Source: Actinomycetospora lemnae
GTDB lineage: Bacteria; Actinomycetota; Actinomycetes; Mycobacteriales; Pseudonocardiaceae
Reading direction: 5' to 3'
DNA length: 64,000 nucleotides
Assembly: GCF_028737315.1 (NCBI RefSeq)
Contig: NZ_JAQZAO010000001.1
Location: forward strand, 248,001-312,000
Translations under genes and position numbers: made by a program
In this document: in pieces, positions 50,393 through 64,000 of the stretch
Position numbering within the stretch: position 1 is the first letter of the stretch
Layout: each line of letters starts with the position of its first letter
Notes under the pieces: model-generated
The model's input: only the letters and a program-made list of their open reading frames with translations
The model's database searches: none
What the model was told of the DNA's origin: nothing

Positions 50393-51733
50393 TCAGGCGG
50401 GTGTCCGCACCGGCGTGCGCGTGCCCGCGCGCCGCACGAGCCGGTCGGCGGCGACGGCGCCGAGGCCGGAGACCAGGGTGATGAGGACGAGGTAGCCCGC
50501 TGCCCCGGCCATGCCCAGCGGCGAGGCGAGCAGCAGCGTCGTGAAGATCGGGGCGAGGGCGCCGCCGACGATCGAGCCGAGCTGGTAGCCGACCGACGCG
50601 CCGCTGTAGCGCACCTCGGTGGGGTAGCACTCCGCAGCGAGCGCGGCCGACGGCCCCCACATCGGTGCCGACGCCCACCGGGCCGCGGCCACGGCGACCG
50701 CGATGAGCAGCAGCGACCCGCTCGCGAGCAACGGCAGGAACAGCGCGGCGACGACGGCCGTGGCGAGGCTGCCGATGACGATCGTGCGCGACAGGCCCCA
50801 GCGGTCGGCGCCCGCCGACACCCACAGGATCAGCGGCACCTCGAGCACCGCGACGACGAGCACGATCGCGATCAGCGGCGCCCGGGGCAGGCCGAGGCTG
50901 CTGGTGCCGTACTGGATGGTGTACGTCGCGGCCATGTAGCCGATGCCCGTGATGCCGGTGAACATCGCGATCCCGCACAGGACCTGCGGGAAGTGGTGGC
51001 GCAGCACCGACGCCAGCGGCAGCGCCATCGACCCGGTGCGCTTCACGGCGACGAACTCCGAGCTCTCCTCGATCCGCAGCCGCACCCACAGCCCGACCAG
51101 CACGAGGACCGCGCTGAGCAGGAACGGGACGCGCCAGCCCCACGACGAGAACGCCTCGGCGGGCATCGACGCCGCGAGCACGAGGAAGATCGCGTTCGAG
51201 GCGATGAGCCCGATCGGCACCCCGAGCTGCGGGAAGCTGCCGTAGAACGCCCGCTTCGACTCCGGCGCGTGCTCCACCGAGATCAGCACCGCGCCGCCCC
51301 ACTCGCCGCCGACCGCGAAACCCTGCACGAGGCGCAGCACGACGAGCAGGACCGGGGCGAGCGCGCCGACCGCGGCGTACGTCGGGAGCAGGCCGATGAG
51401 GGTCGTCGCGACACCCATCGTCACCAGGGTCGTGACGAGGGTGGCCTTGCGCCCGATGCGGTCGCCGAGGTGCCCGAAGACGATGCCGCCGATGGGCCGC
51501 GCGATGAACCCGACCGCGAACGTCGCGAACGCGGCGAGCGTGCCGGTCAGCGAGGAGACCTGCGGGAAGAACTGCGGCGCGAACACCGTCACGGCCGCGA
51601 GGCCGTAGATGTAGAAGTCGTACCACTCGATCGACGTGCCGACGAGGCTCGCGAGCGCGACCTTGCGGACCTCGCGTCCGGAGCGGGCGGTGGGGGCGGG
51701 ATCGGACGGAGTGGCGGTCGGGTCCTCGGCCAT
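50393..51733 (-). CDS. MFS metabolite:H+ symporter (MHS family)
   Basis: 446 residues with 12 hydrophobic segments. The N-terminus GTSIEWYDFYIYGLAAVTVFAPQFFP and the loop GRPIGGIVFGHLGDRIGRKATL-like (here IARPIGGIVFGHLGDRIGRKATL) are hallmarks of the metabolite:H+ symporter family (shikimate/citrate/proline-betaine transporters). RLVQGFAVGGEWGGAVLISVEHAPESKRAFYGSFPQLGVPIG is also typical. It imports a carboxylate. Its neighbours (GntR, IclR, P450) suggest an aromatic or aliphatic acid substrate. The IclR gene lies upstream in the same direction, with 39 bp between them. Confidence 0.93.
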   Translation of the reverse strand: MAEDPTATPSDPAPTARSGREVRKVALASLVGTSIEWYDFYIYGLAAVTVFAPQFFPQVSSLTGTLAAFATFAVGFIARPIGGIVFGHLGDRIGRKATLVTTLVTMGVATTLIGLLPTYAAVGALAPVLLVVLRLVQGFAVGGEWGGAVLISVEHAPESKRAFYGSFPQLGVPIGLIASNAIFLVLAASMPAEAFSSWGWRVPFLLSAVLVLVGLWVRLRIEESSEFVAVKRTGSMALPLASVLRHHFPQVLCGIAMFTGITGIGYMAATYTIQYGTSSLGLPRAPLIAIVLVVAVLEVPLILWVSAGADRWGLSRTIVIGSLATAVVAALFLPLLASGSLLLIAVAVAAARWASAPMWGPSAALAAECYPTEVRYSGASVGYQLGSIVGGALAPIFTTLLLASPLGMAGAAGYLVLITLVSGLGAVAADRLVRRAGTRTPVRTPA

Positions 51734-51772: not shown

Positions 51773-52603
51773 TCAGGGCGCCGGCGGCGCGGCCCGGCGG
51801 GGGCGGCGGCCGGCGGCCAGGGCGTGCGAGACGCCGGCGGCGCTGGTGCGCACGAGCGGAGCGAGCACGGAGACCGGCGGGTTGTCGTGGTGCGCGACCA
51901 CCGACAGCGCGGCCACGACCTCGCCCCCGGCGTCGCGGATCGGGGCGGCGACCGAGGTGGCGTCGTCGGTGATCTGGCGCTCGCTGACCGCGTAGCCGCA
52001 GGTCCGGATGGCCGCGAGCATCTCCCGGATCCGCACGGGGTCGGCGAGCGTGTAGGGGGTGTGGCGGGTGAACGGCCCCTCGAGGACGCGCTCGACGACG
52101 TCGGCCGGCGCGTGCGCGAGGAGCACCAGCCCCACGCCCGTCGCCGTCATCGCCCAGCGGCCGCCGACGCGGGTGAGCACGCCGACCGCCCGGGAGCCGG
52201 CGAGGCGCTCGACGAAGACGATCTCGTCGTCCTCGCGCACCGCGAGCTGGACGTTCTCGCGGGTGACCGCGCACAGGTCCTCGAGGTAGGGCAGCGCCCG
52301 CTCGCGCAGCCCCGGGCCGCGCGGCGCCAGCGCGCCGACCTCCCAGAGCCGCAGGCCGATCTGGTAGCGCCCGCCCGCGTCGCGCTCGACCGCGCCCCAG
52401 ACCTCGAGCTCGGTGACGAGCCGGTGCGCGGTGGACAGCGGCACCCCGGAGCGGCGGGAGATCTCGCTGAGGGTCAGCGTCGGGCGGTCGTCCGAGAAGG
52501 CCTCGAGCAGGCGCAGCGCCCGGGCCACGACCGGCCCCGTCGACACTCGTTCCGGGTCCCGCACGGGTCGGGTGGACCGGCCGCGGTCATGGGTGACCGT
52601 CAT
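51773..52603 (-). CDS. IclR family transcriptional regulator
   Basis: 276 residues. The N-terminal HTH (VVARALRLLEAFSDDRPTLTLSEISRRSGVPLSTAHRLVTELEVWGAVER, about 25-75) is followed by an IclR ligand-binding domain (GRYQIGLRLWEVGALA, NVQLAVREDDEIVFVERLAGSRAVGVLTRVGGRWAMTATGVGLVLLAH, TSVAAPIRDAGGEVVAALSVVAHH). The last ~25 residues are a Pro/Arg/Ala tail (RRPRRAAPPAP). It lies between the MHS permease and a P450 gene, so it probably controls one or both with an aromatic acid ligand. Confidence 0.94.
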   Translation of the reverse strand: MTVTHDRGRSTRPVRDPERVSTGPVVARALRLLEAFSDDRPTLTLSEISRRSGVPLSTAHRLVTELEVWGAVERDAGGRYQIGLRLWEVGALAPRGPGLRERALPYLEDLCAVTRENVQLAVREDDEIVFVERLAGSRAVGVLTRVGGRWAMTATGVGLVLLAHAPADVVERVLEGPFTRHTPYTLADPVRIREMLAAIRTCGYAVSERQITDDATSVAAPIRDAGGEVVAALSVVAHHDNPPVSVLAPLVRTSAAGVSHALAAGRRPRRAAPPAP

Positions 52604-55933: not shown

Positions 55934-56548
55934 TCAGCGCCGGCGGCGTGCCTCGTCGGCGGCCTCGGCGAGCTCGAGGGCCTCGGCCTTCTTCTCGGCC
56001 GCCTCGCGCTCGGCGGCCACGGCCTCGGACTCCTCCTGGACCCGGGTCCGCCGGGCCTCGTGAGCGTGGTCGTCGATCTGCTCGTGCGCCTTCGCGCGGT
56101 CGCGCTCGGCCTGCTCCTTGCGCTGCTGCTCGCGCTGCTCGGCCTTCTCGGCCCGCTGGCGGCGCTCCTCCTCGAGGCGCTGCTTCTGCTCCTCGGCCTG
56201 CTGCCGCGTCCGCTCGCGCTGCTGCTGGTCCTGCTCGCGGCGCTGCGCCAGCCGGTCGTCGGCGACCTCGCGGCGGGCGTCGGCGGCCTCCTCGCGCTCC
56301 GCGGCCTCGCCGCGCTGCCGGACGCGCGCCTCCTTCACCCGGCCCTGCGCGCTCATCTCGGGGTCGCCGAGCACCGTGCCCAGGATCCCGCGCACGGTGG
56401 CCTCGACGCTGTCGAACGCCAGGGACGGACCCCACTCCTTGTTGCCGCCGTTGCCGGTGACCTGGGCCAGCAGGTCGACGGGCACGCGGGCCACGCCGAA
56501 CCCGACCGACACGAGGGTGCGCGGCACCGCGGCCACGGGGTTGCTCAT
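55934..56548 (-). CDS. Coiled-coil protein 2 of the charged-repeat pair
   Basis: 204 residues. The first ~60 (MSNPVAAVPRTLVSVGFGVARVPVDLLAQVTGNGGNKEWGPSLAFDSVEATVRGILGTVLGD) resemble a short membrane-associated or CsbD-like head; the remaining ~140 are an uninterrupted Glu/Arg/Gln/Ala coiled coil (REEAADARREVADDRLAQRREQDQQQRERTRQQ...). The ATG follows GGAGGAGAACCG and overlaps the upstream gene stop (ATGA). No catalytic motif is present. It may form filament-like rods with its partner; the function is unknown. Confidence 0.8.
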   Translation of the reverse strand: MSNPVAAVPRTLVSVGFGVARVPVDLLAQVTGNGGNKEWGPSLAFDSVEATVRGILGTVLGDPEMSAQGRVKEARVRQRGEAAEREEAADARREVADDRLAQRREQDQQQRERTRQQAEEQKQRLEEERRQRAEKAEQREQQRKEQAERDRAKAHEQIDDHAHEARRTRVQEESEAVAAEREAAEKKAEALELAEAADEARRRR

Positions 56549-57054
56549 CGGTTCTCCTCCACGCTCTCGATCACCTCGGCGTCGCGGCGCGCCTGCTCCG
56601 CGCGGACCTCCTCGTCCTGCGCGCGCTCCTCGGCGGCGGCGCGCTCGCGCACCGCGTCCACCTCGTCGCGGCGCAGCTCCTGCTCGCGGGACTGCGCGAC
56701 CTGCTCGGTGGCCTGCCGGCGGGTCGCGGTCTCCTGCGCGGCCCGCTGCTGCTCGGCGGAGCGGTCCTGCTCGGCGCGCTCCTCGCGGGCCGCCGCGGCG
56801 TCCTCGGTCGCGAGGCGCTCGCGCTCGACCCGCAGCTCCTCCTCCTTGGCGCGGGCCTCGGCCTCCTCGCGCTTCTGCTCGGCGAACTCGTCGGCCCGCT
56901 TGGCCTCCTTCGCGGCGTCCGCCTTCTCCTGCTGCAGCTCGCCCTCGGCGCGCAGGTCCTGGTTGTCGGTGACCGCGCCGGCAGCCTGCTTGACGGCGCC
57001 GGCGATCCGCTGACCCGCGCGGGTGGCCTTGCTGGACTCACCGGGGTCGGCCAT
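56545..57054 (-). CDS. Coiled-coil protein 1 of the charged-repeat pair
   Basis: 169 residues. The N-terminal 45 (ATRAGQRIAGAVKQAAGAVTDNQDLRAEGELQQEKADAAKEAKRA) resemble a CsbD-type stress-protein head; the rest is a charged coiled coil (EFAEQKREEAEARAKEEELRVERERLATEDAAAAREERAEQDRSAEQQ...). A strong ribosome-binding site (GAGGAGGAG) precedes the ATG. The 3' end overlaps coiled-coil protein 2, so expression is stoichiometric. It is a possible stress-related or surface/cytoskeletal pair. Confidence 0.8.
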   Translation of the reverse strand: MADPGESSKATRAGQRIAGAVKQAAGAVTDNQDLRAEGELQQEKADAAKEAKRADEFAEQKREEAEARAKEEELRVERERLATEDAAAAREERAEQDRSAEQQRAAQETATRRQATEQVAQSREQELRRDEVDAVRERAAAEERAQDEEVRAEQARRDAEVIESVEENR

Positions 57055-57146: not shown

Positions 57147-58184
57147 CTACCCGCCCAGCTCTGCCCGCAGCCGCCCGGCCCCCGCCGCCAGGGCGCGCAT
57201 CTTGCCCTCGGCCACGTCGCGCGGCAGGTACTTCAGCCCGCAGTCGGGCGCGAGCACGAGCTGCTCGGGTGGGAGCAGGTCGAACGCCCGGCGCGCCCGA
57301 TCGGCGACGACGTCCGGGCTCTCCACCGTCTCGTCGGACAGGTCGAGGACGCCGAGGATGATCGTCTTGTCGGTGAGGTCGGTGAGCACGCCCAGGTCGA
57401 GGCCGGACTGCGCGGTCTCGATGGAGATCTGGTCGACGGGGCTGCCCGCCAGCTCGGGCAGGAACGAGTAGCCCTCGGGGCGCTCGTGGATGATCGCCGC
57501 GTAGCCGAAGCAGATGTGCACCGCCGTGGTCCCCGTGACGCCGTCGAGGGCGGCGTTCAGGGCCTCGAGCCCGTACGCGCGGGCGGCGTCGGGCCGGGCC
57601 TGCATGTAGGGCTCGTCGATCTGCACGACGTCGGCGCCCGCCGCGAACAGGTCCCGCACCTCGGCGTTCACCACCGCCGCGTACGCCATCGCCGCCGCCT
57701 CCGGGTCGCCGTAGTGGTCGTCCTGGGCCTGCTGCGACATCGTGAACGGCCCCGGCACGGTCATCTTGATCGTGCGGTCGGTGGCCGCGCGCAGGAAGCG
57801 CAGGTCGTCGACCTCCACCGGCGCCGGCCGCGCGATCGGCCCGGTGATGCGCGGGACCGGGTTCGGGTGCCCGCTGCGGTCGAGCGCGCTGCCCGGGTTG
57901 TCGACGTCGACGCCGTCGAGCGCGGTCGCGAAGTGGTTCGAGTAGCTCTCCCGCCGGATCTCGCCGTCGGTGACGATGTCGAGCCCGGCGTCCTCCTGCG
58001 CCTTGATCGCCAGCAGCGTGGCGTCGTCCTGCGCCTGCGCGAGGAACTCGGGCGCCACGCGCCAGAGCTCCTTCGCGCGCACCCGCGGCGGGAACCGGCC
58101 GGCGAGCTTGCCGCGGTCGATGAGCCAGTCGGGCTGGGCGTAGCTGCCGACCAGTGACGTGGGCAGCAGGGGCAGGGACGGCAC
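57147..58184 (-). CDS. Cobalamin-independent methionine-synthase-like protein (MetE C-terminal/core type)
   Basis: 345 residues, only the catalytic half of MetE. Zn ligands are readable: His223 and Cys225 (VHICFGY), Cys315 (APDCGLKY), and Glu in ISIETAQSG. Other features are LPTSLVGSYAQPDWLIDRGKLAGRFPPRV at the start, VPGPFTMSQQAQ, DVVQIDEPYMQARPDAA and TDKTIILGVLDLSDETVESPDVVADR. Short MetE-like proteins include methylcobalamin-free methionine synthases, epoxyalkane:CoM transferases and other methyl/alkyl transferases. Its position at the head of an aromatic-cleavage cluster suggests an alkyl/methyl transfer role, such as O-demethylation. GAGGAG stands 7-12 bp upstream of the GTG at 58184. 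Confidence 0.88.
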   Translation of the reverse strand: MPSLPLLPTSLVGSYAQPDWLIDRGKLAGRFPPRVRAKELWRVAPEFLAQAQDDATLLAIKAQEDAGLDIVTDGEIRRESYSNHFATALDGVDVDNPGSALDRSGHPNPVPRITGPIARPAPVEVDDLRFLRAATDRTIKMTVPGPFTMSQQAQDDHYGDPEAAAMAYAAVVNAEVRDLFAAGADVVQIDEPYMQARPDAARAYGLEALNAALDGVTGTTAVHICFGYAAIIHERPEGYSFLPELAGSPVDQISIETAQSGLDLGVLTDLTDKTIILGVLDLSDETVESPDVVADRARRAFDLLPPEQLVLAPDCGLKYLPRDVAEGKMRALAAGAGRLRAELGG

Positions 58185-58207
58185 GGCGGCTCCTCGGGTC
58201 GGGACGG

Positions 58208-59092
58208 TCAGGAGGGCTGGAGCACGAAGTCGTAGGCGGCCTCGCACCACGGGACGTCGCTGTGGCCGCCGTCGGGCGTCGGGCCCGGCTCCCGGTCGGT
58301 GAACGTGACGACCAGCTCGCGCTTGACGCCGAAGACGACGTCGCTGTCGAGGTACGGCGCGCCCTCCTGGAACAGGTGCGTGATCAGCGGCTCGTGGCCC
58401 GGGGCGTTGAGCAGGAAGTGCACGTGCGCGGGGCGGAAGTGGCTGATGTCGGTCTGCGCGATGAGGTGCCCGACCGGGCCGTCCATCGGGATCGCGTAGC
58501 CGAGCGGGGCGATGGTCCGCACGCAGTACGTGCCGTCCTCGCGGGCGGTGTACTTCGCGCGCAGGCGCGCCTCGTCGACCTCGAGCTGGCTCTCGTAGGC
58601 GCCCTCGGCGTCGGCCTGCCAGACGTCGAGCACCGCGCCGGGCACGGGCGTGCCGTCGAGCGAGCGCACCGTTCCGTGCACGAAGAGCGGCGTGCCCGAC
58701 ACCCCGTCGGACATGTCGCCGCCGTAGCCGAGCTCGGGCGAGCCCTCGATGAAGAACGGGCCCAGCACGGTGGCGGGCGTCGCGCCCTCGCGGAAACGGT
58801 GGTTCTGCTGCACCACGAGCATCGACAGGCCCAGCACGTCCGACGCGAGGATGAACTCCTCGCGCTTCTCGTCGCTGATCTGCCCGACCTCGGTGAGCCA
58901 GCGCATCGCCGCCATCCACTCGCCCTCGGACAGCTGCGTCTCGCGGGCGAACGCGTGGAGGTGGCGGACGAGCGCGCTCATGAGCTCCGCCGTGCGCGGA
59001 TCGTGCGCCGTCGACCACCGGGCGGCCGCGAGGTCGGTGATCGTGTCCTCGGTGACGGTCATCGGCGTGGTGGGGGTTGCCGGGTGCGCCAT
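58208..59092 (-). CDS. Intradiol ring-cleaving dioxygenase (catechol/hydroxyquinol type)
   Basis: 294 residues. An N-terminal helical linker domain (EWMAAMRWLTEVGQISDEKREEFILASDVLGLSMLVVQQN) precedes the catalytic beta-sandwich. The Fe(III) ligands are two Tyr (GAYESQLEVDE and APLGYAIP) and two His (RPAHVHFLLNAPG). The domain layout fits catechol or hydroxyquinol 1,2-dioxygenases rather than protocatechuate 3,4-dioxygenase. It cleaves a vicinal diol ring between the hydroxyls to a muconate-type acid. The ATG follows a ribosome-binding site, and it sits in the same operon as the downstream MetE-like gene (23 bp apart). Confidence 0.95.
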   Translation of the reverse strand: MAHPATPTTPMTVTEDTITDLAAARWSTAHDPRTAELMSALVRHLHAFARETQLSEGEWMAAMRWLTEVGQISDEKREEFILASDVLGLSMLVVQQNHRFREGATPATVLGPFFIEGSPELGYGGDMSDGVSGTPLFVHGTVRSLDGTPVPGAVLDVWQADAEGAYESQLEVDEARLRAKYTAREDGTYCVRTIAPLGYAIPMDGPVGHLIAQTDISHFRPAHVHFLLNAPGHEPLITHLFQEGAPYLDSDVVFGVKRELVVTFTDREPGPTPDGGHSDVPWCEAAYDFVLQPS

Positions 59093-59112
59093 GTCGACCC
59101 TCCTGTGGTGGT

Positions 59113-59922
59113 TCAGAGGCTGGGCGGGACGTACGGGTCGGGGTCGACGGGCCGGTTGTGCAGGTCCACCGACAGGAAGATGTCGTTGCCGACGGGGTGG
59201 CGCAGCTCCTCGGCGAGCTGGCCGATGAGCCCCGCCGTCCGGGCGAGCAGGGCGAAGGCGCGCAGCAGCTCGAGGGGCAGGCCGAGGTCCGCGAGCGCCG
59301 CGCCGCAGACGCCGGCGCCGTTGAGGGGCAGCGTCTTCCCGAGGATCTCCGGGTGCACCCGCCCGATCGCGGCGAAGAGCGCGAGGTGCGGACCGGTGAG
59401 CCCCTCCTCGGCCGCGATCGCCATGAGCCGCGGTGTGCGGGGGTCGCCGTCCTTGTGGACGTGGTGACCCAGGCCCGGGACGAACCTCCCGGCCTCGCGC
59501 TGCGCGCGGACCGTCTCCAGTGCCAGCGCGTCCCACCCATCGTCGTCGGTCGGCAGCTGCTCCTGCGCGACCAGGACGCCGTGCAGGAACCGCCCGCAGT
59601 CCTCGGTGACGCCGAGGAAGCGCGAGCCGCCGGCGAGCAGGCCCGCCGCGAGCGCGCCCTGCACCGAGTCGGGCGCGGAGAGGTGGGTCAGCCGCGTGAT
59701 GATCGCGGTCGGTGTGTAGCCGTGGTCGGCCAGCGCGGCGAGGACGGCCTCGAACACTCGGGTCTCGCCGGGCGTGGGCCGGCGCTGCGTCGCGAGCCAG
59801 AACGCGAGCTCGCCGAAGCCGACCTCGCCCATGACGTCGTTCGCCAGGTCGTGGCCGAGCAGGGTGATGGCGTCCTTCGACGAGGCGCCCAGGGCGGTGG
59901 GGTACTCGCGGGGCTCACTCAT
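59113..59922 (-). CDS. Citryl-CoA lyase/citrate-synthase-like protein
   Basis: 269 residues of the citrate-synthase fold. Segments are TALGASSKDAITLLGHDLANDVMGEVGFGELAFWL, LTHLSAPDSVQGALAAGLLAGGSRFLGV and the C-terminal RFVPGLGHHVHKDGDPRTPRLMAIA, with the conserved His/Asp active-site region (GHHVHKDGDPR). Length and sequence fit the citryl-CoA lyase subfamily (used in reductive and degradative pathways) rather than true citrate synthase. It likely cleaves a beta-hydroxyacyl-CoA made from the ring-fission product. It overlaps the CoA-transferase gene by 8 bp. Confidence 0.88.
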   Translation of the reverse strand: MSEPREYPTALGASSKDAITLLGHDLANDVMGEVGFGELAFWLATQRRPTPGETRVFEAVLAALADHGYTPTAIITRLTHLSAPDSVQGALAAGLLAGGSRFLGVTEDCGRFLHGVLVAQEQLPTDDDGWDALALETVRAQREAGRFVPGLGHHVHKDGDPRTPRLMAIAAEEGLTGPHLALFAAIGRVHPEILGKTLPLNGAGVCGAALADLGLPLELLRAFALLARTAGLIGQLAEELRHPVGNDIFLSVDLHNRPVDPDPYVPPSL

Positions 59923-61129
59923 CGGCGCTCCTCGATGGTCCGGCTCCGCTGCGCTCCGTGTCCTGCGCCAACCACTTCCGCAGCTCCGCACCGTGCTCGT
60001 CGAGCTCGGGCGGCGGCAGCTCGTAGGTCGCCGGGGTCTCGGAGAAGCGGATCGGGTTGCGGGTGGTCGGTACCGCCCGCTCCCCTGTGCCGACCTCGAC
60101 GACGGGGTCGAGCCCGAAGCGCTCGGCGATCGCGAAGCCGCCGGCGACGCTGTTGATCGGGCCGGCCGGGACGCCCGCGGCCACGAGGAGGTCGAACCAC
60201 TCGTCGGCGCCCTTGCCCGCCAGCGCCTCGACGAGGATCGGGCGCAGCTCGTCGCGGTGCTCGGTGCGGTCGGCGTTGCGCGCGAACCGGGGGTCGTCGG
60301 CCAGCTCGGGCATCCCGAGGACGCCGCAGAGCTTGCGGAACTGGCCGTCGTTCGCCGCGGCGACGATGAGGTCGTTGTCGGCGGTGGGCAGCGGCTCGTA
60401 GGGCACGACGCTGGGGTGGGCGTTGCCCATCCGCGTCGGGACGACGCCGCCCGCGGCGTAGGCCGAGCTCTGGTTGACCATCCCCGACATCGCCGACGCG
60501 AGCAGCGACAGCTCGACGTGCTGGCCGCGGCCCGTGGCGTCACGGTGGCGCAGGGCGGCCAGGATGCCGATGAGCGCGTCCTTGCCCGCCATGACGTCGA
60601 AGATCGAGATGCCGGCGCGGAACGGCGGGCCGTCGGGCGCGCCGGTGAGGCTCATCAGGCCCGAGACCGCCTGCACCATGAGGTCGTAGCCCGGGACGTG
60701 GGCGCCCCCGGTGGACCCGAAGCCGGAGATCGAGGCGTAGACGAGCGCCGGGTTGTCGGCCGACACCGAGGCGTAGTCCAGCCCGTACTTGGCCATGCCG
60801 CCGGGGCGCAGGTTCTCGATGAGGACGTCGGCGCGGCGGGCGAGCTCCTTGGCGATCGCGACGTCCTCGTCCTGGCGCAGGTCGAGCGCGATGGAGCGCT
60901 TGCCGCGGTTGATGCCCAGGTAGTAGGTCGACGTCTCGCCGCGGGTCGGCGGCATCCAGGTGCGGGTCTCGTCGCCCTGCGGCGACTCGACCTTGACCAC
61001 CGTCGCGCCCAGGTCGGCCAGCAGCATCGTGGCGTAGGGCCCGGCGAGCACGCGCGAGAAGTCGGCCACGAGGAGCCCGGCGAGCGGGCCCCCGCCCGTC
61101 GCCGCGCCGGGGTCGTCCTCCTGCGCCAT
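59915..61129 (-). CDS. CaiB/BaiF family CoA-transferase (class III)
   Basis: 404 residues. The class III CoA-transferase signature runs through PLAGLLVADFSRVLAGPYATMLLADLGATVVKVESPQGDETR, NRGKRSIALDL and GYDLMVQAVSGLMSLTGAPDGPPFRAGISIFDVMAGKDALIGILAAL, with the catalytic Asp in SIFDVMAG. It transfers CoA between carboxylic acids, probably onto the ring-cleavage acid. The ATG lies 26 bp downstream of the palindrome 61155-61170. The lyase gene follows by overlap. Confidence 0.94.
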   Translation of the reverse strand: MAQEDDPGAATGGGPLAGLLVADFSRVLAGPYATMLLADLGATVVKVESPQGDETRTWMPPTRGETSTYYLGINRGKRSIALDLRQDEDVAIAKELARRADVLIENLRPGGMAKYGLDYASVSADNPALVYASISGFGSTGGAHVPGYDLMVQAVSGLMSLTGAPDGPPFRAGISIFDVMAGKDALIGILAALRHRDATGRGQHVELSLLASAMSGMVNQSSAYAAGGVVPTRMGNAHPSVVPYEPLPTADNDLIVAAANDGQFRKLCGVLGMPELADDPRFARNADRTEHRDELRPILVEALAGKGADEWFDLLVAAGVPAGPINSVAGGFAIAERFGLDPVVEVGTGERAVPTTRNPIRFSETPATYELPPPELDEHGAELRKWLAQDTERSGAGPSRSADE

Positions 61130-61154
61130 GCGCCCTGCCCCCTCCGTCCGCTGT

Positions 61155-61170
61155 ACGGACACGTGTCCGT
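61155..61170. promoter_or_regulatory. Perfect 16-bp palindrome, CaiB operon operator candidate
   Basis: ACGGACACGTGTCCGT is self-complementary over 16 bp (8-bp arms, no spacer), lying 26 bp upstream of the CaiB ATG (61129), in the 115-bp gap to the hydrolase gene. Its core GGACAC/GTGTCC is shared with the dyad before the Rieske genes (2664-2678). A TetR or MarR dimer could bind it; the nearby AraC is less likely to. Confidence 0.6.
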
Positions 61171-61244
61171 GTTCGTCCTCGCGAGCCTGCTCGCGGTGGC
61201 CGAGATCGTCAAGCCCGGGGGCGGTCGCGCCGCCGCCGGGTCGA

Positions 61245-61931
61245 TCACCCGACCCGTCGCCCGTCCCCGGGCGCGAGCCGCCGCAGCAGTGCCGCCGCGG
61301 CGTCCACCTCGTCGTCGGCGACCTCGTGGGCGCGGCCGGGCTGCACGCGCAGCTCGACGTCGGCGTCGCGGTCGCGCAGCAGCGTGGCGAGCTCCTCGGT
61401 GGCCGCGAGCGGGATCCACGCGTCGTCGTCGCCGTTGCCGAGCAGCACCGGCAGGCCGGCGAGGGAGGCACCGGCCGCCCCGCGGTCGGAGCCGAGCGGG
61501 CCGAACGCGGCGCCCGTCCACACCACCGCGCCGGCCCACCGGCGCGGCCGGCGCAGGAGGTGGTCGGCGACCAGGCAGGCGCCCTGGGAGAACCCCGCGA
61601 GCACCGTCGACCGGGCGTCGTGGCCGTGCGCGGCGAGGGCGTCGGCGAGCCCGTCGACCACCGCCGCGGCACGGTCGCGCTCGGCGCGGGTCTCGGCGAG
61701 CGGGTCGTGGACGCGACCGGCGTACCAGGAACGTCCGGGCGCGGCCGGGAGCACCCACGTGACGGCCACGTCGGGCAGGCGCGCCACGAGGCGGGTGAGC
61801 ACGTGGTCGTGCATCCACGCGGGGTCCTGGTCGCGGCCGTGCAGCAGCACCACGGCGAGCGTCCCGGAGCCCGGCGGCGCGCCGTGGAGAGCCACCCCGG
61901 GCGCCCGCAGGGCCTCGGCCCGAGCCGTCAC
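61245..61931 (-). CDS. Alpha/beta-hydrolase, phospholipase/carboxylesterase type
   Basis: 228 residues. The oxyanion region LLHGRDQDPAWMHDHVL and the nucleophile elbow AGFSQGACLVADHL (Ser in GFSQG) are clear; Asp lies in LLGNGDDDAWIPL and His in QPGRAHEV. This is the carboxylesterase/YpfH/LYPLA-like family. It might hydrolyse a lactone or ester in the pathway (for example an enol-lactone after intradiol cleavage). The GTG start overlaps the AraC gene (4 bp), so they are co-expressed. Confidence 0.9.
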   Translation of the reverse strand: MTARAEALRAPGVALHGAPPGSGTLAVVLLHGRDQDPAWMHDHVLTRLVARLPDVAVTWVLPAAPGRSWYAGRVHDPLAETRAERDRAAAVVDGLADALAAHGHDARSTVLAGFSQGACLVADHLLRRPRRWAGAVVWTGAAFGPLGSDRGAAGASLAGLPVLLGNGDDDAWIPLAATEELATLLRDRDADVELRVQPGRAHEVADDEVDAAAALLRRLAPGDGRRVG

Positions 61932-62887
61932 GCGGTCCCGTCCAGCATGGTCCGACGGTAGGCCACCGGGGTGCGGCCGGTCGCGGCCTTGACCAGCTGC
62001 CCGAACCGCGTCGCGTTGGTGAACCCCCAGCGCAGCGCGATCGCCGACACCGGGGTGCGGACCTCGGCCGGGTCGGCGAGGTCGGCCAGGCAGCGGCCCA
62101 GCCTCCGCTCGCGGATGGTGCCCGCCACGGTCCGGCCGTCCTCTGCGAGCAGCGCGTGCAGGTGGCGGGGCGAGATGAACATCGCGGCGGCGACGGCGCG
62201 CGGCGACAGGCCCGGGTCGGCGAGGTGCTCGTCGATGTGCCGGTCGATGCGTCCGCGCAGCTCCTCGTGCGGGTCCGGGGCGGCCAGCAGCCCCCGGCGG
62301 GCGAGCTCGTCGTCGAACAGGGTGCGCGCGAGCTCGGTGGCGTGCCGCGCGGCGGCGAGCGCGGCGTCGGGGCGGGCCCCGGGACGCTCCAGGCTCTGGT
62401 GCAGGCCGGTGAGCAGGCCCGCGACGGCCGGGGCGATCCCGTGGGCGGCGCCGAGCGTCGTCGCGGTCAGCGCCTCGGCCTGCCGGTGGGCGCCGAGACC
62501 GTCGGCGGGGAAGCGGAAGCAGAGGCTGCGGTAGCCCTCGCCGCTGACGATCTCGACGGGGCGGGCGGAGTCGTAGAAGACCATGTCCCCGGGGCCCACG
62601 CGGGCCAGCCGGCCGTCCTGCCGGAACTGCGCGGTGCCCGCGAGCTGCAGCGAGAGCAGGTAGTCCGCGGGGGCGTCGTCGATGTGCTCGGCCGCGCGCT
62701 CCGCGCGGTGGGGCCGCGACGACATGGCGATCATCGACGCGGCACCCAGACGTCGGCGGCCGATGCTGCCGCGGAAGCGCTCGGGTGCCGAGTACTCGAC
62801 GTGGAAGGGCAGCAGCGCCCCCGTGACGGCCCCCCGCCAGGCCTCGACGCTCCCGACGTCCTGGACCTCACCGACCACGTCGTCCAT
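61928..62887 (-). CDS. AraC family transcriptional regulator
   Basis: 319 residues. An N-terminal cupin-type effector domain (VTGALLPFHVEYSAPERFRGSIGRRRLGAASMIAMSSRPHRAERAAEHIDDAPADYLLSLQLAGTAQFRQDGRLARVGPGDMVFYDSARPVEIV) precedes an AraC HTH pair (RGRIDRHIDEHLADPGLSPRAVAAAMFISPRHLHALLAEDGRTVAGTIRERRLGRC...VSAIALRWGFTNATRFGQLVKAATGRTPVAYRR). A GGAGGTGCTCGGAG ribosome-binding region precedes the ATG. It is divergent from the VOC dioxygenase and heads the minus-strand operon, so it probably activates one or both. Confidence 0.94.
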   Translation of the reverse strand: MDDVVGEVQDVGSVEAWRGAVTGALLPFHVEYSAPERFRGSIGRRRLGAASMIAMSSRPHRAERAAEHIDDAPADYLLSLQLAGTAQFRQDGRLARVGPGDMVFYDSARPVEIVSGEGYRSLCFRFPADGLGAHRQAEALTATTLGAAHGIAPAVAGLLTGLHQSLERPGARPDAALAAARHATELARTLFDDELARRGLLAAPDPHEELRGRIDRHIDEHLADPGLSPRAVAAAMFISPRHLHALLAEDGRTVAGTIRERRLGRCLADLADPAEVRTPVSAIALRWGFTNATRFGQLVKAATGRTPVAYRRTMLDGTA

Positions 62888-63046
62888 CTCCGAGCACCTC
62901 CGGCGCGCCGGACGACCGGTCGTCGGCCGCCGACCCCCGCACCGTGCCGCGGGCGGAGATGTCCGTGCACTGTAGTGAGAGGCACGAGACGCAGACCACA
63001 CCTAGCGTCGCCGGTCGAGCTCCGGCCCCGCCCTCCAGGAGGTCCC

Positions 63047-64000
63047 GTGTCCCACATCCGCGGTTCCCACCACACGACGCTGTCCGTGGCCGGCGCCCAG
63101 GAGGACGTCGACTTCCACGTCGACACGCTGGGCATGCGCTTCATCAAGCGCACGGTGCTCTTCGACGGCTCGCTGCCGATCTACCACCTGTACTACTCGA
63201 ACGCGGCCGGCGACCCGTCCGCGGTGCTCACGACCTTCCCGTGGCGCCAGGCCGGGCTCGTCGGGCGGCGGGGCACCAACCAGGCCCGCGAGGTGCTGCT
63301 CGCCGCACCGGCCGACTCGCTGGACTTCTGGGAGCGGCGGCTCACGGAGCACGGGGTCGAGGTGACGAGCACCGAGGTGTTCGACCGGCGCCGCCTGGAG
63401 TTCCGCCACCCCTGCGGCATCGAGTACGCCCTCGTGCCCGCCGACGACGACCCGCGCGTCGGCCACCCCGGGCAGGGCGTGCCCCCGGAGTACGCGATCC
63501 ACGGCATCCACGGCACCGGCATCCACGTCGCCACCCCGGAGCGCATGGTCGAGTTCTCCGAGGAGGTCTTCCACTCCCAGGGCAAGCTCGTCGAGGACGG
63601 CGACCGCGCCGCGTACCAGGTCGGGCAGGACAGCCACGGCAACCACGTGGAGCTGATCGCCGACAACGCCGACGACCAGGGCACCTGGCGCTACGGCGCC
63701 GGCACCTTCCACCACGTCGCGTGGAACCTCGAGACCCTCGAGAACCAGGACGACCTCAAGTTCGAGATCGAGGGCAACGGCTACACCGACATCTCCGAGC
63801 TCAAGGACCGCAAGTACTTCAAGTCGGTCTACGTGCGCACCCCGGGCGGGGCGCTGTTCGAGCTGGCCGTGACCCACGCCGAGGGCGGCTGGACCTGCGA
63901 CGAGTCGCCCCACGAGCTCGGGCAGCGCTTCCAGCTGCCCGAGCAGTTCGAGCACCGCCGCGAGGAGATCTTCTCGAAGCTCGAGCCGATCGAGACCCCG
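63047..64000 (+). CDS. VOC (glyoxalase-fold) ring-cleaving dioxygenase, hydroquinone-type (3' end beyond window)
   Basis: At least 318 residues, open to the window end. It opens SHIRGSHHTTLSVAGAQEDVDFHVDTLGMRFIKRTVLFDGSLPIYHLYYSNAAGDPS, the start typical of LinE/MhqO/PcpA-like extradiol dioxygenases of hydroquinones. The expected metal ligands are visible: His in SHHTTLSV, His in FHHVAWN and Glu in GALFELAVTH. GTG 63047 is preceded by AGGAGGT. It has two VOC modules, as in hydroquinone 1,2-dioxygenases. Divergent from the AraC gene, it is probably under AraC control. Confidence 0.9.
   Translation, partial: MSHIRGSHHTTLSVAGAQEDVDFHVDTLGMRFIKRTVLFDGSLPIYHLYYSNAAGDPSAVLTTFPWRQAGLVGRRGTNQAREVLLAAPADSLDFWERRLTEHGVEVTSTEVFDRRRLEFRHPCGIEYALVPADDDPRVGHPGQGVPPEYAIHGIHGTGIHVATPERMVEFSEEVFHSQGKLVEDGDRAAYQVGQDSHGNHVELIADNADDQGTWRYGAGTFHHVAWNLETLENQDDLKFEIEGNGYTDISELKDRKYFKSVYVRTPGGALFELAVTHAEGGWTCDESPHELGQRFQLPEQFEHRREEIFSKLEPIETP

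Follow-up and report, generated by a model that had tools for sequence, protein, structure and literature searches.

An operon of Actinomycetospora lemnae and other soil bacteria that joins exchangeable ring-cleaving dioxygenases to a CoA-transferase and a citrate-synthase-fold lyase

The stretch of 64,000 nucleotides of the Actinomycetospora lemnae genome analysed here (G000:C11:248001-312000; source genome of 6.06 Mb), referred to below as the window, carries genes for a lyase of the citrate synthase fold, a class III coenzyme A (CoA) transferase of the CaiB family, a hydroxyquinol-type intradiol dioxygenase and a MetE-like protein, which form part of a single conserved operon whose further members lie beyond the window. 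Within this otherwise constant operon, two unrelated types of ring-cleaving enzyme, intradiol dioxygenases and LigAB-type extradiol dioxygenases, have been exchanged repeatedly. This recurrent exchange is the surprising part of the finding: intradiol and extradiol cleavage are usually seen as committing pathways to different products, and a swap around a constant operon points to a substrate that gives the same product with both enzymes, which is directly testable. The operon is common in soil bacteria and apparently undescribed, no description of its gene set appearing among the matches listed from the open-licence literature (subscription papers were outside the scope), and it probably serves the breakdown of phenolic rings.

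Gene content and conservation of the operon

An earlier note, made from the sequence alone, had listed seven genes in this part of the window: an intradiol dioxygenase, a VOC-type dioxygenase, a CaiB transferase, a lyase-like enzyme, a MetE-like protein and an esterase, with an AraC regulator between the divergent arms. All seven are present at the place given and were recovered by family matches, and all but the VOC gene lie on the minus strand, where the order is AraC, esterase, CaiB, lyase, intradiol dioxygenase and MetE-like. The last four are designated module 1, and the VOC, AraC and esterase genes module 2. The CaiB gene (59915-61129, minus strand as for all window genes of module 1; CoA_transf_3, 3.1e-120) overlaps by 8 bases that of the lyase (59113-59922), which is followed after 20 bases by the intradiol dioxygenase gene (58208-59092) and, after a further gap of 23 bases, by the accessory MetE-like gene (57147-58184). 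Module 1 extends past the window end, since beyond the VOC gene lie two genes of the same module, encoding an IclR regulator and a TRZ/ATZ-type amidohydrolase; 0.9 kb past the latter is a 4-hydroxybenzoate-hydroxylase-like flavin adenine dinucleotide (FAD) monooxygenase (FMO).

Among 396 genomes of the phylum, 26 have the lyase at E <= 1e-15. Of these neighbourhoods 20 were compared, and in most of those that hold a close lyase it sits with CaiB and with homologues of IclR and the amidohydrolase. A scan with 12 aligned lyases over a collection of 84,980 species genomes showed the lyase relatives to be widespread, with at least 581 confirmed among at least 597 pattern matches. The operon as such was followed in the 80 best matches of these at least 581, referred to as the named loci, which were picked via the lyase and are hence biased to close relatives. 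The best named matches are Actinomycetospora species. With a gene counted as near when its tblastn match has 45% identity or more and begins within 9.5 kb of the lyase, CaiB is near in 79 of the 80 loci, the amidohydrolase in 78, IclR in at least 71, a PIG3-like reductase in 53 and the MetE-like gene in 20. This proximity count underestimates IclR and AraC, as three of the nine loci scored without IclR do have it (L062, L073 and L090). The proposal that lyase, CaiB and intradiol dioxygenase form one unit is supported, in that they behave as a conserved set.

A palindrome, GTCCG-N5-CGGAC, links these genes further: 93 matches were found in 91 loci when 9 are expected, an expectation derived from simple base shuffles, and 79 of the 93 lie just upstream of CaiB (40, in as many loci of the 91), the amidohydrolase (31) or IclR (8), with 14 elsewhere. 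The sole match with at most one mismatch in the window, which is not enriched by count alone, is TGTCCG-N5-CGGACG at 61145-61161 (minus strand), directly before CaiB and inside the 115-base gap that separates this gene from the esterase. A weak copy between IclR and the amidohydrolase (L006:3887-3903) has two mismatches and is alone not above chance, and the whole A. lemnae genome gives 9 matches versus 5 in a reversed control, an uninformative result. The palindrome is predicted to be the probable IclR binding site, and the operator-marked genes CaiB, amidohydrolase and IclR would then form one regulon. The same scan of the window gave no operator near the VOC, AraC or esterase genes.

The intradiol dioxygenase (Dioxygenase_C/N, PF00775/PF04444) has hydroxyquinol 1,2-dioxygenase as its nearest solved structure (1tmx, 7.5e-79). 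Its Tyr, Tyr, His, His iron ligands align with those of 1tmx and are conserved in 95% or more of the 32 homologues aligned (95% being the threshold for residue counts in homologues), and it keeps an Asp and an Arg that also align with 1tmx. CaiB falls below every NCBIfam subfamily cut-off (best 370 of 750) and thus in no named substrate subfamily. The MetE-like protein, a single domain corresponding to the C-terminal half (Meth_synt_2, 1.1e-32; nearest solved structure 3rpd, 8.7e-55), is below the cut-off of all NCBIfam methionine synthase models; with the zinc motif H-x-C .. E .. C in 19/19 aligned homologues it is a probable zinc thiol-alkyltransferase. The amidohydrolase is nearest to PRK08204, below the cut-off of that model, and retains an HxH/H/H/D metal site with no HxxE after the third His.

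The lyase is annotated as citryl-CoA lyase (NF004868, 262 bits for a cut-off of 193; PF00285, 1.2e-16), and the earlier description as citryl-CoA-lyase-like holds for the family profile and the His residues; it fails at the Asp of the solved enzyme. Compared with citryl-CoA lyase 6hxp, the motif NVDG reads NGAG, with Ala203 at the position of an Asp which we take, from work on citrate synthase and ATP-citrate lyase, to be catalytic. NGAG is found in 95/95 loci whose homologue has 58% identity or more, all of which keep both His positions (H67 and H153), and 10/10 more distant homologues likewise lack the Asp. The window lyase thus shares its fold family and both catalytic His positions with 6hxp and with the C-terminal module of ATP-citrate lyase and differs from 6hxp in having Ala for Asp and, as partner, a CoA-transferase instead of a citryl-CoA synthetase. 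Judged from these residues it is not a canonical citryl-CoA lyase, and its active site does not support the name.

Six proteins below 45% identity that carry the name citryl-CoA lyase (L055-L058, L141 and L142) are also without the Asp, with NATG, NVTG, NVSM or NVAM at the motif, so that much of PRK06224 may be misnamed.

Exchange of ring-cleaving dioxygenases

The earlier note would have been contradicted by lyase and CaiB homologues occurring always away from dioxygenases. A ring cleaver is near the lyase in 75 of the 80 named loci, LigAB alone in 47, the intradiol enzyme alone in 27 and both in one (L125); among the five with neither, four are short loci. The LigB of relatives (PF02900, 3.6e-25) matches protocatechuate 4,5-dioxygenase and gallate dioxygenase. 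Its small LigA-like partner gives no Pfam match and aligns to LigA by hhalign at 94.5% (E 8e-8), the alignments compared being shallow (4 and 3 rows). In the LigB at L086:10812-11675, as in its homologues (56 in all), GTGHLSL stands where LigAB and DesB have GTGGxSH, and the stretch expected to hold the Glu iron ligand reads, by eye, NATHGFMDF; the iron site of these relatives may differ.

The exchange was followed in 88 loci, made up of the named loci, further relatives and two Rhodococcus plasmids, in which genomes may overlap. Five short loci (L045, L068, L095, L129 and L132) were left out, L129 having ca. 3 kb beyond its lyase with no LigAB or intradiol match, and L098, which has no CaiB match, is outside the tree. 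With labels given for LigB above 60% identity and for the intradiol enzyme above 33%, 55 loci have LigAB only, 31 the intradiol enzyme only, one both and one neither. On a tree of lyase and CaiB (93 rows), the ring-cleaver label changes at least 12 times. For the 88 loci each trait changes 14 times on the best tree, when shuffled labels give a mean of 26 and a lowest value of 20; of nine independent well-supported pairs, 8.7 on average show the two traits changing in opposite directions and none in the same one (sign test, median p 0.004). The Shimodaira-Hasegawa-like approximate likelihood-ratio test (SH-aLRT) gives a support of 98 to the sister pair A. soli (L064, intradiol) and A. chiangmaiensis (L066, LigAB), and of 100 to the operons of two Rhodococcus plasmids, of which L139 has LigB and LigA and L144 the intradiol enzyme. 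These two plasmid operons have in common IclR, an FMO, an alpha/beta hydrolase, the amidohydrolase (34% identity to that of the A. lemnae genome), CaiB and the lyase. Gene position is not rigid: the PIG3-like reductase lies between the lyase and the intradiol gene in 10 named loci, and in L092 the intradiol gene is flanked by IclR and the amidohydrolase. Points that weigh against a strict exchange are the locus L125 with both enzymes, the five named loci with none, and the tree itself, a quick search assessed by SH-aLRT only, with long-branch warnings and 34 of 90 inner branches open.

It might be supposed that the intradiol enzyme works in the ordinary hydroxyquinol pathway, its neighbours serving something else, an explanation that matches the family of the enzyme, its iron ligands, the residues aligned with 1tmx and its best match, a hydroxyquinol 1,2-dioxygenase. 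It is nevertheless rather improbable. That pathway has a maleylacetate reductase, in place of which the window operon has a CoA-transferase and a lyase, and none of the six matches to iron-containing alcohol dehydrogenases (Fe-ADH) in the genome is on the same contig, C11. The genome has a separate intradiol gene on contig C27, where (G000:C27:48604-52035, L003) an Amidohydro_2 protein gene and the intradiol gene are followed directly by an Fe-ADH match; the latter is probably the maleylacetate reductase and the Amidohydro_2 protein a resorcylate-type decarboxylase, making this a probable resorcylate/hydroxyquinol module. Moreover, the 31 intradiol copies of the operon form a clade of their own, with only L043 and L046 falling elsewhere as if recruited independently (the program flags long branches there), and LigAB replaces the intradiol enzyme while CaiB and the lyase remain.

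A predicted pathway through a vicinal triol

Gene content, conservation, exchange, operator and insertion were computed; every chemical step of the following scheme is one that we infer. The scheme as a whole, i.e. one operon, a vicinal triol, CoA loading and release of acetyl-CoA with module 2 standing apart, is put forward tentatively, as a little short of an even call. Module 1 would be a catabolic operon under IclR control, serving to degrade a phenol that bears three neighbouring hydroxyls (pyrogallol type), whose ring would be opened by the intradiol dioxygenase or, in relatives, by the LigAB-type extradiol enzyme. On a vicinal triol both types would break the bond between two carbons that carry hydroxyls, and the diacid formed would be the same, so that the enzymes could swap while CaiB and the lyase stay. 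Gallate dioxygenase forms an acid in this way; how such an enzyme binds its substrate has been described for DesB (excerpts of PMC3962378). The amidohydrolase would probably open or hydrate a pyrone or enol form of this diacid, CaiB would transfer CoA to the terminal carboxylate and the lyase would cleave the thioester into acetyl-CoA and a 2-oxo acid. The earlier suggestion that CoA is loaded before a C-C bond is split to release acetyl-CoA fits. The triol would come from FMOs near some operons and be held reduced by the PIG3-like reductase found in relatives, and the MetE-like protein may act on a methoxy group.

As substrate, 1,2,3,5-tetrahydroxybenzene is preferred because, being at once of pyrogallol and hydroxyquinol type, it carries the hydroxyquinol pattern that suits the hydroxyquinol-type enzyme; pyrogallol is less likely, its product having no use for this lyase. 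Intradiol PcaHG is reported to convert pyrogallol, a poor substrate, to 2-pyrone-6-carboxylate (excerpts of PMC6628648). Cleavage of tetrahydroxybenzene would yield 2,4-dioxoadipate, the CoA ester of which, with water, would give acetyl-CoA and oxaloacetate, the products of citryl-CoA lyase, with no further enzyme. The specific claim of a bacterial central pathway via 1,2,3,5-tetrahydroxybenzene, in which the exchanged dioxygenases form 2,4-dioxoadipate and the Asp-less lyase hydrolytically splits 2,4-dioxoadipyl-CoA into acetyl-CoA and oxaloacetate, is possible and on the doubtful side. The scheme as a whole, if right, would add a CoA-dependent lower route for plant phenols. The same central intermediate is proposed in fungi: in Aspergillus, gallate is reported to be converted to a tetrahydroxybenzene intermediate, with the difference that a DUF3500 dioxygenase is proposed there (excerpts of PMC12388069).

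Several points weigh against this scheme. The role of the amidohydrolase is a guess, and the substrate is a prediction. The lyase being without the Asp, retro-aldol chemistry is not assured. The LigB of relatives has Leu at the position of the catalytic His (LigAB His195, DesB His192), with a His three residues earlier. Exchange of the ring cleavers need not imply identical products. FMOs resembling the two Actinomycetospora FMOs are near only 9 of the 80 loci (other kinds were not counted), so that most loci would make tetrahydroxybenzene elsewhere or use another triol, e.g. gallate. On a third Rhodococcus plasmid (L140), CaiB and lyase (65-66%) occur with no amidohydrolase, LigAB or intradiol match within 16.8 kb. 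Finally, growth of A. niger on gallate is reported to be unimpaired after deletion of 17 putative dioxygenase genes including hqdA (excerpts of PMC12388069), which, as far as that source goes, disfavours a hydroxyquinol-type cutter in this fungus.

The main rival keeps the same operon and takes gallate as the triol: cleavage to 4-oxalomesaconate, hydration by the amidohydrolase, a CaiB-made CoA ester of 4-carboxy-4-hydroxy-2-oxoadipate, and its splitting by the lyase into acetyl-CoA and 2,4-dioxoglutarate. LigJ, a member of the amidohydrolase superfamily, hydrates 4-oxalomesaconate. LigB resembles protocatechuate 4,5- and gallate dioxygenase; gallate is a widespread soil triol for which no FMO is required; the hydrated product is the nearest structural analogue of citrate, as would suit a homologue of citryl-CoA lyase. 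Against it stand the hydroxyquinol type of the intradiol enzyme, the awkward C5 diketo acid that would result, for which no enzyme was noticed in the loci, and the existence of a CoA-free aldolase route to pyruvate and oxaloacetate. Overall, gallate is considered an unlikely substrate. The operon shares with the 4,5-cleavage systems for gallate and protocatechuate (LigAB, DesB/GalA) the LigB and small LigA-like protein of relatives and an amidohydrolase-superfamily partner; it differs by a lower route of CaiB and a citrate-synthase-fold lyase with no aldolase, and at the catalytic His position of LigB.

Alternatively, the amidohydrolase may itself be the ring-opening dioxygenase, acting on an N-heterocycle or a two-ringed compound in the manner proposed for KpiC, which belongs to PF01979 and is reported to open the ring of 3,4-dihydroxypyridine in 4-hydroxypyridine breakdown (excerpts of PMC7356986). 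The HxH/H/H/D metal site with no HxxE after the third His would agree with this. The same excerpts place an enamidase and two uncharacterised proteins nearest KpiC, whereas the A. lemnae protein is nearest PRK08204, a comparison made by description only, and this alternative is regarded as highly improbable.

Other systems were considered as the parent of the operon and set aside. For the fde/ifc flavonoid clusters, the main text of PMC11069340 mentions neither CoA nor a lyase, that of PMC4440368 has no citryl, CoA transferase or fde, and that of PMC11303751 has no citryl, CoA-transferase not having been looked for there. The pathways of riboflavin catabolism (PMC12746152) and of 4-hydroxypyridine catabolism (PMC7356986) share gene types with the operon and, in the excerpts of both sources, not the set.

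The VOC, AraC and esterase genes

The three remaining genes look like a module of their own, of the hydroquinone type, that has been inserted between IclR and CaiB. The esterase, an alpha/beta hydrolase (61245-61931, minus strand; Abhydrolase_2), overlaps by 4 bases the AraC-type regulator gene (61928-62887, minus strand; AraC_binding_2/HTH_18), from which the VOC ring-cleaving dioxygenase of the PcpA/MhqO-like hydroquinone type (63047-64027, plus strand, the final 27 bases being beyond the window end) diverges. The VOC protein matches 2,6-dichlorohydroquinone dioxygenase (4huz, 1.2e-64) and MhqO (3oaj, 2.1e-44), and the nearby esterase recalls the MhqD esterase that accompanies such enzymes; it differs in scoring 26.9 bits against an equivalog cut-off of 325 for NF047577. 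Control of the Mhq system is of the MarR type, whereas module 2 has an AraC-type regulator.

Of 249 genomes of the family, 33 have a VOC homologue at E <= 1e-80. In 20/20 genomes of other genera, examined to ca. 8-9 kb on each side except for two short contigs (L176, 4.4 kb; L185, 12.6 kb), the VOC gene has no lyase/amidohydrolase set nearby; a distant CaiB match (34%) lies ca. 7 kb away in L191. An AraC homologue (37-42% identity) is beside it in 18 of the 20, and AraC is likely cognate to VOC. Within the genus, VOC is found in 7 of the 16 genomes listed, with the esterase and AraC in six of the seven (in A. straminea, L059, VOC and esterase occur with no AraC match between them at L059:7813-8031). 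Module 2 lies between IclR and CaiB in five of these carriers and elsewhere in two (L215 and L216), where the operon is absent from the 18.5 kb examined. In A. succinea (L060) and strain NBRC 106375 (L061) nothing was detected between IclR and CaiB and the order is IclR-CaiB-lyase-intradiol-MetE, while in L065 neither VOC nor AraC gave a match and an esterase remnant of 97 residues is all that is left.

These data bear on the reading of the earlier note, in which VOC, esterase and minus-strand genes act in a single pathway on one (methoxylated) hydroquinone-like compound. The minus-strand operon of lyase, CaiB, intradiol dioxygenase and MetE-like is supported, with IclR and amidohydrolase partners that lay past the window; membership of the VOC enzyme is not supported, nor is the idea that two ring-cleaving types work together here, since VOC, AraC and esterase are absent, elsewhere or away from the lyase set in the genomes just described. 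The esterase remnant, the AraC neighbour that VOC has in other genera and the lack of an operator at module 2 in the window argue in the same direction. On the other side, the position between IclR and CaiB in five of the seven carriers speaks for a single pathway, as do two arrangements that weigh against the separation of module 2. In six of the 20 other-genus genomes, all of one genus (L186-L188 and L191-L193), the module has another kind of intradiol enzyme (43-46%) and an FMO in its vicinity. In distant actinobacteria (L051:9442-13092, L052:877-4322 and L053:4181-9857), a lyase of 50-53% identity follows in line an AMP-binding CoA ligase (PF00501) and a VOC relative (31-34%), with a 73% MetE-like gene also nearby in L053. 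These three loci repeat the logic of ring cleaver, CoA loading and lyase, the ring cleaver being of a third type and the CoA loading falling to a ligase in place of CaiB. A VOC enzyme can thus belong with this lyase family, the evidence at the window locus being against it, and greater weight is given to the single pathway for this reason; it is still thought improbable.

Distant lyases and neighbouring genes

Lyases of 41-42% identity on Cupriavidus and Sulfitobacter plasmids accompany LeuCD and CaiB or an HMG-CoA-lyase gene, with no dioxygenase annotated in the stretches around them. On the Cupriavidus plasmid (L141:7998-12040), the lyase, CaiB and a LeuCD-type dehydratase are close to part of a tricarboxylate transporter, and this gene group is perhaps a citramalate-type route.

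Beside the operon end, two open reading frames rich in Ala, Glu and Arg and highly charged (55934-57054, minus strand) gave a sub-threshold CsbD match only. Further along, a P450 (52710-53900, minus strand), which presumably resembles the CYP199A aryl O-demethylases, an IclR (51773-52603) and an MFS gene (50393-51733) form a group close to the operon. The P450 (88-95%) and MFS (91-96%) genes are also found close to the operon in A. straminea, A. succinea, A. lutea and strain NBRC 106375.

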